Shown here piece by piece: positions 2,686-19,038 of a stretch of 20,040 nt of DNA. Each line of letters begins with the position of its first letter. The stretch's first letter is position 1. This DNA is from a virus, in IMG/VR virus record IMGVR_UViG_3300029286_000305, positions 1-20,040 of that record. One strand, given 5' to 3'. Made by a program: the position numbers and the translations under genes. The notes under the pieces are model-generated. The model was not told the DNA's origin. It worked only from the letters and a program-made list of their open reading frames with translations, and made no database searches.

Positions 2686-2835
2686 CTAACCTTCAATAAA
2701 TAATCCCCAGGCGATTAGCGCCAGCCCGGCCATGATCACCGATGCCGGGATGTAGATCAACCAGACCCCCGCCAAAATACCGAGGACTCCGAGTAGAATA
2801 AATATGTCTGACCGATCAAATTTATACTTCTTCAT
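2686..2835 (-). CDS. Small two-transmembrane phage protein (49 aa)
   Basis: This short frame fills the only gap between the large terminase and the portal. It encodes 49 residues: a charged start (MKKYKFDRSD), a hydrophobic helix at about 11-29, a turn at Pro30, and a second hydrophobic helix at about 31-47, ending in TAG. Its ATG overlaps the terminase stop as TAATG, with AAGG about 9 bases upstream, so translation is probably coupled. No family is recognised. Tiny membrane proteins are known at this position in siphophages but have no settled role. The frame, coupling and clean 2-TM pattern make it a credible gene. Confidence 0.75.
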   Translation of the reverse strand: MKKYKFDRSDIFILLGVLGILAGVWLIYIPASVIMAGLALIAWGLFIEG

Positions 2836-4445
2836 TAAAATACCTTGACATCGTAGCCTTCATCCTCGAAAGCTGACTTCTCTTCCGGAGCGTGTCTTGT
2901 TGCCCGGTCCAGCGCCATGATTAAAGCGACCATGCCGTCGATCTTCATCGCGCCCTTGGGTTTGACCGGCTTGATATTCCCCGCCGGATCCTGCAGGACG
3001 GTCATGTTGTCGGCATTCCACCTTAAAACAGGGTTGCCGCCATGGTGGAGTTTCTTACCCAGGACGATATTCATGATCTCTTTGGTCGGGGCGCTCATTG
3101 AGGCAAACCCCTGGCCGAAGGGGATGATCACCGGTCCTTGTTCCTTGGGGTCCATCACGAACCCGTCTTCTATAAGGTCCTGGACTAATTTCGTGGCGCC
3201 CCAGCGGTCGAAGGCCAGCTCCCTTAAATTGAATTCCTCACGGATCTCCCGTATCTGTTCCTTTATATAGGAATAATCGATCACGTTCCCCGGCGTTAAG
3301 GTGATGAAACCTTTTTTCGCCCATTCCCGGTAAGGCACCTGGTCGTGCTTCTCTTTGTCCGCCGCTGTGTCCTCCGGTATCCAGAATTTCATCAGGGTTT
3401 TGTAGATATCATCCTGAGGAAAGACCAGGGCAAGCGCTGCCAGGTCCGTGGTTGAGGCCAGGTCAAGCCCGCCGTAACAATCAGCCCCTTTTAAATCTTC
3501 AATGGGGGCGTTACAGGCGTCCCAGTCCGACATTTTCATCCAGCGCAATGAACTTTTCACCCAGATATTCAATCTCAGTTGTTTGAAGAGGTTCTCCTCG
3601 GCTATGTTGCGCTGCGCGTCCTGGAAAGACTTCCTAAATTCATCTATGTTTAAAATCTGCCCCAGGGCAGGGTTGGCTTTGTACCAGTTCTTCTCGTCCG
3701 TCCAGTCCTCGTCATCTTTTAAACCGTAAACCACCGCATAGAAAGACGGGTCATCCATCGGAGATCCCTGCACCCAGGCGTATTGTTTAGGATACCGAAA
3801 TTTTAATACTCTTAAAGCGTGCTCGCGGATCTCCCAACAGATCGAATTCCGGTCCGTGCCAGCCGTCGTTATGAATATAAACAGCGGCTGCCGGCGGGCC
3901 GCGCCGGATCCTTTGGTCAGGACATCGATCAGACCTCTGTCCTTGTGCGCATGTACCTCGTCGACCACTAACCCCGAAATGTTGTATCCATGTTTTGAGT
4001 AGTTCTCTGAAGAGAGCACCCGGTAAAATGAATTGGACCTGGGGACGGTTATACGTTTTGTGCCGTCCAGGACGTCACATCTTGAGGAAAGCTCCGGGCT
4101 CTCCTCCACCATTATCTTAGCGGCCCGGTAGACAATTTCCGCCTGCTCGCGGACCGTGGCTGCAGAATAGACCTGCGCGCCAGGCTCGCTGTCAGCGGTT
4201 AAAAGGTAGAGCGCCAGGCCGGAGGCGAATTCAGACTTCCCATTCTTCTTTGGTATCTCGATATAGACGGTCTGATATTGCCTGAACCCGTCTGTCTTGA
4301 GTGTTCCAAATATCTCGACTGTGGCCTTATGCTGCCAGTCCAGTAAATGAAAGGGCTCACCGGCCCATTGTCCCGTGGTATGCCTTAGTCCTTTGAAGAA
4401 TGCGATCGCCTGGTTGGCGGCTTCTGGATTGATTTTTGACTTCAT
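2835..4445 (-). CDS. terL: Terminase large subunit
   Basis: ATPase and nuclease motor that cuts concatemeric phage DNA and pumps it through the portal. The 536-residue protein has an N-terminal ATPase with Walker A-like IPKKNGKSEFASGLAL (about residues 85-100) and Walker B VVDEVHAH (about 160). The C-terminal RNase H-like nuclease has its acidic residues in GGLDLASTTDLAAL, LAFDRWGAT and KIDGMVALIMALDRA. Length and order fit the HK97/Terminase_1 family. The ATG follows the small-subunit stop by four bases, and the gene overlaps the next mini-gene by one base, so the packaging genes look translationally coupled. It is complete, with no missing motif. Confidence 0.96.
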   Translation of the reverse strand: MKSKINPEAANQAIAFFKGLRHTTGQWAGEPFHLLDWQHKATVEIFGTLKTDGFRQYQTVYIEIPKKNGKSEFASGLALYLLTADSEPGAQVYSAATVREQAEIVYRAAKIMVEESPELSSRCDVLDGTKRITVPRSNSFYRVLSSENYSKHGYNISGLVVDEVHAHKDRGLIDVLTKGSGAARRQPLFIFITTAGTDRNSICWEIREHALRVLKFRYPKQYAWVQGSPMDDPSFYAVVYGLKDDEDWTDEKNWYKANPALGQILNIDEFRKSFQDAQRNIAEENLFKQLRLNIWVKSSLRWMKMSDWDACNAPIEDLKGADCYGGLDLASTTDLAALALVFPQDDIYKTLMKFWIPEDTAADKEKHDQVPYREWAKKGFITLTPGNVIDYSYIKEQIREIREEFNLRELAFDRWGATKLVQDLIEDGFVMDPKEQGPVIIPFGQGFASMSAPTKEIMNIVLGKKLHHGGNPVLRWNADNMTVLQDPAGNIKPVKPKGAMKIDGMVALIMALDRATRHAPEEKSAFEDEGYDVKVF

Positions 4446-4449
4446 ACAT

Positions 4450-5079
4450 TTATCTCGGCTTCCTTTCCGCCGCCCGGAGCGCCTTCTCCAATGGAGTCAA
4501 CCCCTCTTCAGTCGGTTCCTGTGGGCCTTTTGTAACGGTGATGCCCAGTTCCACCGCGAAAGTCTTGACCTGTGCCCAGGCCTTCTCAGCGATGGCCACC
4601 TCCGTCTTCTTTCTCATCACTGTGTACGGATCGCCTGTCTTGGTATAGAACTCCACCGCAACCTCGAAGCCATCCCTCAGCGCGAGCTCCGCGCGCACCG
4701 CCCGGGAATAAGCAGCGCAGTAACCCTCAAGTGTCGCGTGATTGACGTCCTGCAGTGTGCCCAGGTCATGTAACACCTGGCAGATCCGTTGAAACTCAGC
4801 CTTGCCGTACTCATCAAACCATTCAGGACAAGAGATCGGGGTCTCTACCTGCTTGGTCGTACGCTGCTTTAGTCCATCTTTTGCTGACATGAGCGCTCCG
4901 CCTGATTTCCCTGGAGCTTTCGCAATCGCAACCTTCGTTTGCACCGGGCGCTTCTTTAATCCGTCTTTTGCTGACAACCTCGCAGGAAGCGGCCCGTGCC
5001 GGTCTACCCGGTACGTTCCACTATGTAAGTGCTGCTCAACGGACTTTTTATTCGATCCACCGCTCCCTTTCCCTCCCAT
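4450..5079 (-). CDS. terS: Terminase small subunit, P27 family
   Basis: DNA-recognition subunit that brings the packaging site to the large terminase. The 209-residue product carries the P27-type N-terminal motif HSGTYRVDRHG at about 20-30. It also has the conserved core CPEWFDEYGKAEFQRI, then LGTLQDVNHATLEGYCAAYS, and a helical C-terminus. It is longer than usual for the family (about 150-170). The excess is a linker in which SAKDGLK appears twice, about 29 residues apart, reflecting a DNA-level repeat. The second copy starts with an in-frame ATG (4890) preceded by GGAG, so a short form is conceivable. The chosen ATG at 5079 has GGA 8 bases upstream and sits directly after an in-frame TAA. 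Confidence 0.9.
   Translation of the reverse strand: MGGKGSGGSNKKSVEQHLHSGTYRVDRHGPLPARLSAKDGLKKRPVQTKVAIAKAPGKSGGALMSAKDGLKQRTTKQVETPISCPEWFDEYGKAEFQRICQVLHDLGTLQDVNHATLEGYCAAYSRAVRAELALRDGFEVAVEFYTKTGDPYTVMRKKTEVAIAEKAWAQVKTFAVELGITVTKGPQEPTEEGLTPLEKALRAAERKPR
4862..4976 (-). repeat. Direct repeat inside terS (two copies, with a third partial copy upstream)
   Basis: Two near-identical 27-29 base stretches, 4862-4890 and 4950-4976, both encode SAKDGLK followed by K/Q-R. The shared minus-strand core is TGTCAGCAAAAGAYGGA, continuing through TTAAAG/CTAAAG. A third, shorter match of about 13-14 bases (5111-5124) lies between terS and the HNH gene, in the same reading frame. There it begins an ATG-started 14-codon frame that ends in TAA immediately before the terS ATG. 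The pattern suggests local duplication of the gene's 5' end. Any binding role is speculative. Confidence 0.6.
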
Positions 5080-5568: not shown

Positions 5569-5947
5569 CGCGTGGGTTTTCCTTCTGTCCCAGGTACTGC
5601 TTGCCAAGCCATATCTGCATCGTAATATTAGGAGGCTTACCTTCTGAATAAACAGGCTTACCCTTCTTGTCTACCAAAACCTTCCCGTCAGTATCCATCA
5701 TTGGCCTTGACTCATTGCCAAGAGCGGCCGACATCTGTGCCCTTCTTAAAGAGACCGATCCCCTTGCTGCTCTTTTTTTATAATACTCCGCAAAATTCGC
5801 GCCTTTTTCTCTCAGGCATGCGCGCTCGATGGTATCCTCTGAGCAGCCAAACCAATCAGCGATCTCAATTAAAGTACAATGCAATTGACAGAGCTTATCA
5901 AACTCCGCCCAATTGATTTGTATTCGGGGCCTGCCTCTGTCACCCAT
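5558..5947 (-). CDS. HTH DNA-binding phage protein, possibly a second small-terminase-like protein
   Basis: The 129-residue protein begins with basic GDRGRPRI and then a homeodomain-like helix-turn-helix, LIEIADWFGCSEDTIERAC (about residues 27-46). A basic helix (KKRAARGSVSLRRAQMSAA) and a conserved-looking end (NITMQIWLGKQYLGQKE) follow. Proteins of this layout are common just before terminase and HNH genes in siphophages. They are variously labelled HTH or small-terminase-like. A true P27 small subunit lies two genes downstream, so this one may bind the packaging site or act as a regulator. It overlaps both neighbours (8 bases with the methyltransferase, 11 with HNH). Confidence 0.75.
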   Translation of the reverse strand: MGDRGRPRIQINWAEFDKLCQLHCTLIEIADWFGCSEDTIERACLREKGANFAEYYKKRAARGSVSLRRAQMSAALGNESRPMMDTDGKVLVDKKGKPVYSEGKPPNITMQIWLGKQYLGQKENPRDAV

Positions 5948-7160
5948 TGATCAACTCGGCCTTCAATCCGGTGAACTGCTCCCAGCGGTTGATTATAACG
6001 TCGCAATAATGCGGGTCAATCTCCATGCAGTAACACCTGCGACCAAGTTTCTGGCAAGCAATTAATGTCGATCCGGAGCCGCCGAATAAATCAACTATTA
6101 CCTCATTTATTAATGAACTGTTCTTAATAGCACGTTCCGCCAGGGCTACCGGCTTCTCTGTGCTATGCACCATATTGAGATTGAATACCTTATCGATCTG
6201 CCACAGGTCTGATTGTGAATGATCACCAAACCACCTGTGAGCTGCGCCTTCTTTCCAACCATAGAGTATTTGCTCATGCTGCCTGTTATAATCGGTCTTG
6301 AACTTACCCATCACAAACTGGTTCTTTGCCCAGATTATCAACTGCCTCAGCGACATGGAGTTGTTTTGCAGTTGCTTCTCAAATTGAGAGAACGAGTTCC
6401 AGCCCGAGCATACGTAATAAGCATGCCCTGGTGTGAGTATATTGGATAGGTTGCTAATGAAAGCGCTACAAAATCTCTCCCAATCTTCGGGGTTCAGGTC
6501 ATCGTTGACCATGCCCTTAAATCTTTCTTTGTGTAGCTTTCCCCTGTATTGCCACTTCACGTTATAAGGCGGGTCCGTGAACACCATATCGGCTGGATTA
6601 CCATCCATTAATCTTTGCACTTGCTCATCTACCGTGCAGTCGCCACATAACAGACGATGATCACCCATCCTGTAGAGTTGCCGGGTCTTGCATGACGCTT
6701 CAACTTCCTCCGGGATATCGTCATCATCAATCAACCCCTTCTCTTCGACTTGAAGCGCGCTAAGGTCCTGGGTTGAGAAACCCGTTAGTTCCATATCGAA
6801 TCCCGCTATCTCGAGCATTTCCAGTTGCTCTTTCAAGATTGCCGGATCCCACTCAGCCAATAGAGCGCTCTGATTATCCATCAGCGAGTAGCCTGCAGCC
6901 ATCTGCTCATTATCCTCTACCATCACCGCTGCAATCTCACTCCATCCCATCTCTATGGCCGCCTGCAGCATCCCGTTGCCAGCCTCAACTATCCTGTCTT
7001 CACTGCGCACAACAATCGGTTTCCTCTGACCATAAGCTTCCAGACTGCGCTTGATTGCCTCGAGGTTCAGATCTGGGTGCCTGCGCGCATTATGAGGATC
7101 GAGTTTTATAGAATCGATGGGGATAATGAGAGGCTTTAACGATTCAATAATCATATTCAT
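5940..7160 (-). CDS. ParB-like domain fused to a DNA (N6-adenine/N4-cytosine) methyltransferase
   Basis: Predicted DNA methyltransferase, probably protecting or marking phage DNA. Residues about 8-95 form a ParB/sulfiredoxin-like domain (PIDSIKLDPHNARRHPD, IVEAGNGMLQAAIEMGW). Residues about 170-406 form a beta-class methyltransferase in the order target motif then SAM motif: TDPPYNVKW, later VDLFGGSGSTLIACQ, then CYCMEIDPHYCDVII. The GHR-type ParB motif appears as GNGM, so nucleotide hydrolysis is doubtful. The frame is open to a GTG at 7268, but those 36 codons are read through a tRNA-like sequence and were excluded. The ATG at 7160 follows GGGG in the acceptor/T-arm and shares its A with the tRNA CCA. 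An ATG at 7154 is an alternative. Confidence 0.92.
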   Translation of the reverse strand: MNMIIESLKPLIIPIDSIKLDPHNARRHPDLNLEAIKRSLEAYGQRKPIVVRSEDRIVEAGNGMLQAAIEMGWSEIAAVMVEDNEQMAAGYSLMDNQSALLAEWDPAILKEQLEMLEIAGFDMELTGFSTQDLSALQVEEKGLIDDDDIPEEVEASCKTRQLYRMGDHRLLCGDCTVDEQVQRLMDGNPADMVFTDPPYNVKWQYRGKLHKERFKGMVNDDLNPEDWERFCSAFISNLSNILTPGHAYYVCSGWNSFSQFEKQLQNNSMSLRQLIIWAKNQFVMGKFKTDYNRQHEQILYGWKEGAAHRWFGDHSQSDLWQIDKVFNLNMVHSTEKPVALAERAIKNSSLINEVIVDLFGGSGSTLIACQKLGRRCYCMEIDPHYCDVIINRWEQFTGLKAELING

Positions 7161-7234
7161 GGTAGCGGCCCCCGGAGTCGCGCCGGGTATCTCTGGTTTA
7201 TGAGACCAGCGGCTTACTCTTTGCCCTGGCCGCA
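7160..7234 (-). tRNA. tRNA-Met-like gene (anticodon CAU), atypical D-arm
   Basis: The minus strand folds as a 75-base cloverleaf. The acceptor is TGCGGCC with GGCCGCT: six pairs, with the 1:72 position T-T. The D-stem is GGC/GCC with a 9-base loop lacking the usual GG. The anticodon arm CTGGT-CTCATAA-ACCAG pairs perfectly and gives anticodon CAU. A 5-base variable region is followed by T-arm CCCGG-CGCGACT-CCGGG, then discriminator A and encoded CCA. The loop CTCATAA is that of Met-type tRNAs; an unpaired 1:72 position is an initiator-tRNA trait. The T-loop begins CG instead of TT. It may be a degenerate phage tRNA or a tRNA-like processing signal. The final A is the first base of the methyltransferase ATG. 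Confidence 0.68.
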
Positions 7235-7357
7235 GTAGATAAGTAATAACGGAGCACAATGAATGCACACGGAGACTGTCTCGTTATTCACTTCTAACCA
7301 TACCTCTAACCAACCTATTAGGCTATCATCCAATATTAAGGGGCATAATTGGTTCAT
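7214..7357 (-). CDS. Small hypothetical protein at head of the late operon (47 aa)
   Basis: A 47-residue frame starts at an ATG with AAGGA 7 bases upstream, just after the tandem terminators. It ends in TAA inside the 5' part of the tRNA-like gene, overlapping it by 21 bases. The peptide is hydrophobic and acidic, with CIHC near its middle, and contains SLIGWLEVWLEVNNE. No family is recognised. The ribosome site and position support translation, but the overlap with the tRNA and the short length leave doubt. It may also be a leader whose translation affects the structured RNA that follows. Confidence 0.4.
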   Translation of the reverse strand: MNQLCPLILDDSLIGWLEVWLEVNNETVSVCIHCAPLLLIYCGQGKE

Positions 7358-7370
7358 AATTATGTCCTTG

Positions 7371-7394
7371 AAAAAAGCCCGCGGTTAAGCGGGC
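7371..7394 (-). terminator. Rho-independent terminator (downstream of a tandem pair)
   Basis: On the minus strand GCCCGC-TTAACC-GCGGGC forms a 6-bp GC hairpin followed directly by TTTTTT. It lies between the early genes and the late block, about 14 bases before the next ATG. Confidence 0.85.
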
Positions 7395-7397
7395 AAT

Positions 7398-7425
7398 AAA
7401 AAAGGAACTTCTGTGCAGAAGTCCC
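7398..7425 (-). terminator. Rho-independent terminator (upstream of a tandem pair)
   Basis: On the minus strand a stem GGGACTTCT / AGAAGTTCC with a 4-base loop (one internal mismatch) is followed by TTTTTTATT. It comes 35 bases after the stop of the 144-residue gene. With the second hairpin it makes a strong double stop for early transcription, implying antitermination or a late promoter for the structural genes. Confidence 0.8.
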
Positions 7426-7460
7426 CAATACACATACTGTAAAGGATTTTGTTCGTGATG

Positions 7461-7895
7461 TCAAGTTTTACGTAGTACGTCCGTATCTGAAAACCGTGCA
7501 CCATTGAGAAAGTCCCTCATCTTTTTTATGATGAACCAATTTTCGCAATATCCTGGCGCAAATTTTCCTCCGCAGCCGGCGCATGATTCGATTATGCAGC
7601 CATTCACTATCCGACGCTGCCAGGCACTAAGCTGTGGATGCCGCCCGACCTGCTGCAACATTGATGGCGTTATGGACAACGATATTAATCCCCAGACGTC
7701 GCTCTTGCTGAGAGATGATATGGCCATGTCGATATCGGCCTTCCAAATTGTCAACGTTATCTGTGGGCTCTTTGTGCCACGTACCTTTGTAAATATCTTC
7801 ATTTCCTCCAAAACTCGCGGCGAGCAGCCAGCGGAAAGATCAACATAATTTACCAGTACAAAGCGGATGAGCCGCCGCGAGTAACTCTCCGTCAT
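7461..7895 (-). CDS. Hypothetical protein, last gene before terminators; candidate late regulator
   Basis: This 144-residue protein is not confidently recognised. It starts with a basic stretch (SYSRRLIRFVL). A helical middle contains KADIDMAISSLSKSDVWGL and SITPSMLQQVGRHPQLSAW, which could hold a helix-turn-helix. It ends with a Cys cluster (CIIESCAGCGGKFAPGYC) that could bind a metal. Its ATG overlaps the preceding stop as ATGA. Its place as the last early gene, just ahead of two terminators and the late block, is typical of phage late activators or antiterminators (Q-, ArpU- or RinA-like). That role is inferred from position only. Confidence 0.7.
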   Translation of the reverse strand: MTESYSRRLIRFVLVNYVDLSAGCSPRVLEEMKIFTKVRGTKSPQITLTIWKADIDMAISSLSKSDVWGLISLSITPSMLQQVGRHPQLSAWQRRIVNGCIIESCAGCGGKFAPGYCENWFIIKKMRDFLNGARFSDTDVLRKT

Positions 7896-10963: not shown

Positions 10964-11646
10964 GCAGGAAACTCCTGGCGCAGCGTGCCATACCGGGGAT
11001 TGATATTGTTCTTCATAAACACGGGGATCCCGACCTTGTCAGCAACATCCCTTATCTGATCGACCTAATCGAAACGCGGTTGTATTCTTGGGTTGGTCTG
11101 CGTCCCCACTATTACCCAGTCGATGCCGGCATCCTTCATAATGAAGGCGTAATCATCGAGATCGTCGTAGGCCGCGTCCATGATTGACCCCAATAAGGGC
11201 TCAAAGGATACAAACTTGACCTTGGCCTGGACTATTGATAGATGCCTGGCCGCCTCAACAAATGCCCTGCCACTTATGCAACTCGCGCCGAGCCAGCAGT
11301 TATCAGGGAATGGCGACCATTTGGATAGCTTCCGCGGCTGTTTAGTGAGAAGCTGGAATGTGTGCTGTGGGGTTAGGTTTATCGTTTGTAAAACATCATG
11401 CGTCCAGTTCTCATTATCCCCGAATAACTCACCCATAGAGCACGTAAATATCTTCGCTGGTTTTTTAAGGGACCATGGCTCGAAACGCCTGTCTTCATGA
11501 AAGGTCGGCACAAACCCATTGGGGAAAGCCTTCCCACCCTTAAATCTCTCGGCGATCTTGCGGGCATAGCAGTAATCGCAGCCATAAGTACAGCCGGTAA
11601 TGGGGTTCCAGGTGTAGTCAGTCCACTCGATGGCGGTTTTATTCAT
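10960..11646 (-). pseudogene. DUF5131 (phage Gp37/Gp68) radical-SAM-like gene interrupted by an in-frame amber codon
   Basis: The intact N-terminal part (11646 to 11068, 193 residues) begins KTAIEWTDYTWNPITGC and carries the three-cysteine motif GCTYGCDYCYARKIAERF (CxxxCxxC), expected to bind a 4Fe-4S cluster as in radical SAM enzymes. FSLGE-like FTCSMGELFGD and WVIVGTQTN are also family-like. The frame meets TAG at 11065-11067. Beyond it the same frame stays open for 34 codons, through IRDVADKVGIPVFMKNN and LRQEFPA, to a TGA overlapping the next start (ATGA). That tail is what the family normally ends with, and the stopped position fits a Trp (TGG to TAG). The function is probably lost or reduced, unless read through. 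Confidence 0.82.
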
Positions 11647-18481: not shown

Positions 18482-18787
18482 ATGGCAGGAAATGGAAAAA
18501 AGCAAATAGGTTTCCAGGTTGAAATCATAGTGGAGCCGGATGGTGATGAATACCACGCCTACTGTCCTGCGCTTAAAGGCCTTCATGCGTGTGGTGGAAC
18601 GGTAGACGAAGCCTTAAGCAATGCACGTGATGCTGCTACCGCATATATAGAATCGCTCATAAAGCACGGCGACCCAATCCCCGTGGGTGTGGTAATAGAT
18701 GTTCCACCGGCAGGCTTGAAGAAACAAGGTCGGGGTAAGGCCTCTTCTCGCATATTTAAAGAGGATTTGACGGTAGCGACCGCGTGA
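18482..18787 (+). CDS. hicB: HicB-type antitoxin
   Basis: The 101-residue protein has the HicB partial RNase H-like fold: FQVEIIVEPDGDEYHAYCPA, LKGLHACGGTVDEALSNARD and a helix with AATAYIESLIKHGDPIP. It neutralises HicA by binding it. The C-terminal tail is short and basic, with no clear DNA-binding helix set, so autoregulation would need another route. AAGGTG lies 7 bases before the ATG, and the stop overlaps the hicA start (GTGA). It lies just outside the attachment site, so it is probably host DNA. Confidence 0.9.
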   Translation: MAGNGKKQIGFQVEIIVEPDGDEYHAYCPALKGLHACGGTVDEALSNARDAATAYIESLIKHGDPIPVGVVIDVPPAGLKKQGRGKASSRIFKEDLTVATA

Positions 18788-19038
18788 AATTCCCCAAACT
18801 TATTTGGGACCAGCTAAAAAATCTTTCCGCGGATGAACTTATTGCCGCATTATTGAAAGACGACTGGGAACCGGATACTAAATCAGGTTCTCAACGTATC
18901 TACAAACATCCTGACGGCCGCCGAGCTTCTGTTCATTACCATGCCGGCAAAACCTTTGGTTCTAACCTCCTTAAATCCCTATTTGATGATATTGGGTGGT
19001 CTGTCAAAGATCTGCGCCGTTTGAAGCTTATAAAATAA
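18784..19038 (+). CDS. hicA: HicA-type toxin, subfamily without the usual catalytic His
   Basis: The 84-residue product resembles HicA mRNA-interferase proteins with a double-stranded RNA-binding-like fold: an N-terminal helix (SADELIAALLKDDWEPD), KSGSQRIYKHPDGRRAS, and the C-terminal IGWSVKDLRRLKLIK. In classic HicA the glycine motif is GSH, with His catalytic. Here it is GSQ. Histidines remain in KHPDG and VHYHAGK. The ending LRRLKLIK marks a subgroup that often lacks that His, so activity cannot be assumed. Translation begins at GTG overlapping the hicB stop. Confidence 0.85.
   Translation: MKFPKLIWDQLKNLSADELIAALLKDDWEPDTKSGSQRIYKHPDGRRASVHYHAGKTFGSNLLKSLFDDIGWSVKDLRRLKLIK

Follow-up and report, generated by a model that had tools for sequence, protein, structure and literature searches.

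A predicted initiator-like tRNA(CAU) gene in the late region of a phage genome and its relatives in an apparently undescribed phage-borne family

The DNA analyzed in this study, hereafter the window, is a stretch of 20,040 bases from an IMG/VR virus record. On its minus strand, replication genes are followed by a DNA methyltransferase (MTase) gene, an HNH endonuclease gene, the genes of the small and large terminase subunits and the portal gene, and a predicted tRNA gene with the anticodon CAU abuts the MTase start (Table 1). Within 7377-7464 of the same strand, two terminator-like hairpins come immediately after a promoter-like site, a layout known from antitermination-controlled phage late promoters. 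Given that both hairpins are located between the promoter and the tRNA, this arrangement suggests that expression of the window tRNA awaits antitermination; it must be noted that the promoter and terminator scans of the window gave results only slightly above the shuffled expectation. Elsewhere in the window, a HicB/HicA-type toxin-antitoxin pair (Pfam PF15919 and PF07927) lies on the plus strand at 18482-19038, near a repressor and a nuclease-like gene. In addition, a DUF5131 protein (phage Gp37/Gp68-type, radical-SAM-like CxxxCxxC) is encoded on the minus strand at 11065-11646; it ends at 193 aa, corresponding to position 189 of the 243-position profile, and is possibly truncated.

Table 1. 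Coordinates of the features in and around the predicted tRNA gene of the window.
Feature	Position	Strand	Basis or remark
Terminase large subunit	2835..4445	-	PHROG 9; 2.7 kb downstream of the tRNA
Terminase small subunit	4450..5079	-	PHROG 83; 2.1 kb downstream of the tRNA
ParB-N / N6-N4 DNA methyltransferase (MTase) gene	5940..7160	-	Pfam PF01555 (2.4e-33), PHROG 498 (1.1e-117)
Predicted initiator-like tRNA(CAU) gene with encoded CCA	7160..7234	-	Rfam score, family alignment and covariation
GGGGG, sole Shine-Dalgarno-like stretch of the MTase start	7169..7173	-	Sequence; inside the 3' strand of the tRNA T-stem/acceptor; pairing partly predicted, putative Shine-Dalgarno function
T-loop CGCGACU	7176..7182	-	Common to L109 and L130; UGCGACU in L138
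Anticodon CAU, loop CUCAUAA, 5-bp stem	7200..7202	-	Sequence
47-codon frame over the 5' part of the tRNA	7214..7357	-	No homolog found
Terminator-like hairpin 2	7377..7394	-	Between promoter and tRNA
Terminator-like hairpin 1	7403..7426	-	Between promoter and tRNA
Sigma-70-like promoter TTGACA-17-TACAGT	7436..7464	-	Just past the stop of ORF 7461-7895; L156 has a matching site at the corresponding position
Conserved gene immediately preceding the tRNA locus	7461..7895	-	62% identity to its L156 counterpart, also followed by a family tRNA

Nucleotides 1-75 of the window tRNA correspond to positions 7234..7160 of the minus strand. A preliminary description of this DNA had proposed a cloverleaf there with a perfect CAU anticodon arm, a T-arm and an encoded CCA, and every element is present letter for letter: all five pairs of both the anticodon arm and the T-stem are perfect, and the CCA is encoded at 7162-7160. 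The irregularities that it had listed, namely an unpaired 1:72 position, a D-loop without GG and a T-loop starting with CG, were likewise found, as U:U, AG and CGCGACU, respectively. The universal U8, G18G19 and U54U55 are replaced by A8, A18 and C54G55. The covariance-model check proposed at that time gave a positive result, the Rfam tRNA model (RF00005) scoring 35.1 bits with a cut-off of 29 and an E-value of 9.6e-8 for the window. Neither ARAGORN nor the Rfam gathering search with its default fast filters reported a tRNA at 7160-7234. The cloverleaf (-29.7 kcal/mol) is nearly co-optimal with the minimum free energy fold (-29.8 kcal/mol), and single-sequence folding gave a z-score of only -1.57, which is uninformative alone.

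Relatives of the window tRNA were sought with sequence patterns. The first one, combining the anticodon loop, the odd T-loop and ACCATG, retrieved one other contig, L109, whose tRNA is 91% identical to that of the window. By blastn, the tRNA is all that both sequences have in common; L109 has its own terminase and portal, and downstream of the CCA of its tRNA are genes for ordinary tRNA-Thr and tRNA-Ser in place of a methyltransferase. A relaxed pattern, in which everything save the D-arm and the anticodon loop was left free, retrieved 56 contigs, and its A11:U24 version 32 further ones. The resulting family comprises 58 distinct, well-formed phage-borne CAU-tRNA members, among them the annotated tRNA-Met of Sinorhizobium phage phiM5 and an unannotated tRNA of Bacillus phage FADO, and copies are present on rhizobial plasmids too. 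The family signature was found in none of the 783 bacterial genomes searched (385 Alphaproteobacteria and 398 Bacillota) and, therefore, the family tRNA is not a standard host tRNA. ARAGORN detects 63 of the 93 family loci, so that a sizeable share of these genes is missed by a standard tRNA finder; in 71 of the 93 there is no further tRNA within 1.5 kb. No description of the family as such was found in the literature searched, whose reach left out most subscription journals, and this phage-borne family of many unrelated phages is apparently undescribed so far.

Some copies are incomplete. In L156 (1440-1860, minus strand), an HNH_3 endonuclease frame interrupts the family tRNA after approximately nucleotide 45, and the 3' acceptor half (GGCCGCTACCA) lies about 400 nt downstream, with the T-arm partly missing; a group I intron was considered for this interruption and discarded, as no Rfam match was obtained. 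In L132, L140, L155, L166, and L167 the tRNA is truncated directly behind the T-arm and fused to CCATGAGTACGAGG..., with loss of the 3' acceptor half. Since these copies are truncated or interrupted, the gene is dispensable in some relatives. An apparent decayed relic of the 5' half was also observed at 2001-2082 of L115, a Bradyrhizobium japonicum plasmid. On the other hand, L119, L127, and L150 carry a second, phiLM21-type initiator-like CAU tRNA 0.4-0.6 kb downstream of the family tRNA.

With respect to genomic position, the terminase, where detected, is downstream of the family tRNA and on the same strand (large subunit in 31 of 31 loci, small subunit in 25 of 25), and a NusG-like antiterminator, where detected, is upstream of it (30 of 30); the loci behind these counts are not independent, many being related prophages, and include several unrelated terminase types. 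In L130, L138, and phiM5 the tRNA lies among structural genes. L156 has several early genes in common with the window; the same gene as in the window (7461-7895) precedes its tRNA, along with a promoter-like site that matches. The head-of-late-operon placement given in the preliminary description agrees with the terminases found downstream in the window and in the family and, judging from gene order, the family tRNA gene belongs to the late region.

Published features of formylation and initiation are an open 1:72, G2:C71, C3:G70, R11:Y24 and A73 (PMC7949028, PMC9976931). The window tRNA has no Watson-Crick pair at 1:72 and carries G2:C71, C3:G70, A73 and R11:Y24. Among the 58 members, 1:72 is open in 49, U:A in eight and U:G in one, and never G:C or C:G; position 1 is never G, and G2:C71, C3:G70, A73 and G30:C40 are nearly constant. 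As the purine11:pyrimidine24 orientation was set by the search patterns, the opposite one was searched separately, and Y11:R24 appeared in the same scaffold in only 2 contigs vs. 56 and 32 for the R11:Y24 patterns. When host tRNAs were compared with the family model, the initiator came out best in at least 10 of 12 bacterial genomes. The three G:C pairs of the initiator anticodon stem (29-31:39-41), by contrast, are complete in one of the 58 members, G30:C40 being the only constant pair, and read G:C, G:C, U:A in the window. For this reason the family is called initiator-like. In this regard, the 3-GC rule is already relaxed in Alphaproteobacteria, because most of the host initiators sampled there have A29:U41. 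A8 is present in all 58 members (the position was free in the first pattern and fixed in the second); among 218 other tRNAs of the fetched loci, U8 was found in 188 and A8 in 10, several of these 10 being family members trimmed differently by ARAGORN. To our knowledge, A8 and the altered D/T-loop contact of the window subfamily are unlike any known functional initiator. In the alphaproteobacterial host loci L199 and L200, the next-best host tRNA against the family model after the initiator was tRNA-Gln(UUG), whose D-arm (GCC-AAGTGGTAA-GGC) has the same layout as that of the family; this likeness may hint at a chimeric origin.

These identity features bear on the alternative that survives best, namely an elongator tRNA-Met of the ordinary kind, or a tRNA-Ile(CAU) of the lysidine type, which adds to the host pool and whose acceptor and D-arm features result from drift. 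It would account for the lack of the 3-GC stem, and CAU within the loop CUCAUAA occurs in host Ile2-type tRNAs too; moreover, the annotated family copies are named tRNA-Met, and tRNAscan-SE classes most of the phiLM21-like prophage copies as Met, not as fMet (PMC12429752). We nevertheless hold it to be unlikely: Y11:R24 and G1 characterize the elongator CAU tRNAs sampled from hosts, whereas in the family scaffold Y11:R24 is almost absent, position 1 is never G and 1:72 is open or weak.

The conservation of the fold was evaluated in 27 distinct sequences. In these, 93.3% of pair cells were paired vs. 30-41% with slid partners, two-sided changes occurred at 11 of the 20 pairs and the covariation score was 0.401 vs. 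0.106 for shuffles, the covariation evidence being that of the free acceptor, anticodon and T stems since the sequences were picked by their D-arm and anticodon-loop letters. The cloverleaf is kept by compensatory changes in homologs; from the window to L109 alone, C6:G67 becomes G6:C67, U28:A42 becomes C28:G42 and G29:C41 becomes A29:U41. A18 accompanies G55 in all five members with G55, the window included, and G18 accompanies U55 in 51, which across the aligned members is a linked change between the D-loop and the T-loop. The preliminary description had considered a degenerate tRNA or a viral mimic; because the odd positions occur in relatives and the stems covary, neither reading is retained, and the oddities are, on this comparative evidence, not the product of random decay. 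The window copy might be a tRNA pseudogene that has lost its function and is decaying, but on the same data this appears improbable. The score of this copy is indeed below the 48-50 bits of the intact members L146 and L119, ARAGORN misses it and relatives have broken copies, but all its stems are intact save 1:72, normally open in the family, they have changed in a compensatory manner, and the odd D- and T-loop letters are identical in L109 and almost so in L130, A18 and G55 changing together.

As the preliminary description had pointed out, the last A of the tRNA CCA is the A of the MTase ATG at 7160, the overlap being exact. The start may alternatively be ATG 7154; GTG-7268, from which translation would read through the tRNA, was rejected, and the ATG starts are preferred, because MTase-family matches begin no earlier than residue 3 of the ATG-7160 protein. 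The 47-residue frame also reported to overlap the tRNA 5' half is present (7357-7214), with no homolog in the fetched loci or Pfam. Given that the overlap is exact and that the only Shine-Dalgarno-like stretch is inside the tRNA, the MTase start would be lost on maturation of the tRNA, and ATG 7154, with a leader of 5 nt, would remain. In the window phage, 3' maturation of the tRNA and translation of the MTase could physically compete; intact tRNA and full-length MTase mRNA would be alternative products of one transcript, an arrangement for which no selection was seen.

The same junction was looked for in relatives, as had been proposed. The family model, built with the window included, found nothing credible in 100 loci with related terminases or MTases (83 MTase matches), and none of the family members found besides the window adjoins such an MTase start. 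MTase homologs as a path to relatives yielded only matches below 41% identity, none of those examined carrying the tRNA, and the search of genome contigs revealed no MTase relative. Of 56 family members, 2 have TG after the CCA, approximately the chance rate. Therefore, the junction is private to the window phage, its role as a conserved regulatory device was discarded, and the overlap looks like a coincidence, an accident of this phage alone. The preliminary description had set two joint findings against the element, a covariance score below threshold and absence of the structure from relatives that keep the MTase; the absence was observed, while the score is above the threshold. A cis element controlling the MTase, either through end processing that cuts the late transcript or through a fold that hides the MTase start, would fit the shared A, the enclosed Shine-Dalgarno-like stretch and the placement at the head of the late region. 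It is, in our opinion, very improbable, as the structure is not conserved before homologous MTase genes, CCATG occurs at the chance rate, and the family retains the anticodon loop, A73 and, in most cases, CCA, none of which would be required of a cis element. Finally, a chance shape in a GC-rich stretch, to which the silence of ARAGORN and of the fast Rfam search and the modest z-score could be ascribed, is practically negligible in view of the E-value and is already refuted by the homologs, since a covarying one is present in L109, an unrelated phage. In attention to the above indicated, and as far as sequence comparison can tell, 7160-7234 is a real phage tRNA gene, initiator-like and reading AUG.

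On balance, we lean towards a functional phage tRNA, from a distinct family of phage-borne tRNA(CAU) of the initiator type, that serves late translation by supplementing or replacing the host initiator. This reading is grounded in the tRNA homology, the covariation, the common identity features, the association with phages and the late-region position; that the tRNA is expressed, charged, formylated, used in initiation or active against host defences is what we infer from them. The tRNA would be transcribed with the late region, in the window probably by readthrough of the two terminators from the promoter at 7464-7436, and would be excised from the transcript by RNase P and 3' trimming. It would then be charged with methionine by the host MetRS, probably formylated, and would start translation in the late phase, adding to the host initiator tRNA or replacing it. 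Replacement could be useful, for instance, when host defences cleave tRNA-fMet by means of tRNA-cutting toxins and, by analogy, an anti-defence role is plausible. The rarity of a complete 3-GC stem (1/58), U1:A72 in 8/58 members, A8, the altered D/T-loop contact of the window subfamily and the truncated or interrupted copies of some relatives speak against the initiator reading. More tentatively, and going further than we would commit ourselves to, many unrelated phages might possess a dedicated second initiator tRNA, switched on late for phage messages when the host initiator is destroyed or outcompeted, and structurally unlike any host tRNA sampled in its A8, R11:Y24, open 1:72 and lack of a 3-GC requirement. 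The usual explanations of phage tRNAs are codon supply and the replacement of cut elongator tRNAs; an initiator-like family that goes with the late region of otherwise unrelated phages suggests, instead, a control over how translation is initiated. The family is also a test of how much deviation from the bacterial pattern, here A8 and an incomplete 3-GC stem, an initiator tolerates without ceasing to work.

The family has in common with bacterial initiator tRNA-fMet the anticodon CAU, the loop CUCAUAA, the open 1:72, G2:C71, C3:G70, R11:Y24, A73 and G30:C40. It differs in having A8 for U8, a 3-bp D-stem with A13/A22 and an incomplete 3-GC stem, and in being phage-borne; the window subfamily, moreover, is without the G18-U55 contact and the UU of the T-loop. 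Among prophage tRNAs of S. meliloti, fMet and Met are the commonest, and its prophages are known to harbour lone tRNAs for Met or fMet whose use is unknown (PMC11476347, PMC12429752). Such tRNAs, in phiLM21-like prophages and phage phiM5, resemble the family as single CAU tRNAs of temperate phages, although U8 and a D-arm like that of host tRNAs set the phiLM21 tRNA itself apart. The Sinorhizobium papers report these genes without recognising the family or its spread (PMC11476347, PMC12429752). In other phages, tRNAs can replace host tRNAs cut by nucleases (PMC10264068), and VapC toxins, one of them from the alphaproteobacterium Bosea, cut tRNA-fMet (PMC8522696). A phage-supplied substitute as a possible counter-defence is akin to the putative role of the family. 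Unlike the phages of this family, which carry an initiator-like tRNA, Shigella phages mostly avoid having a gene for tRNA-fMet, the target of VapC (PMC10264068).
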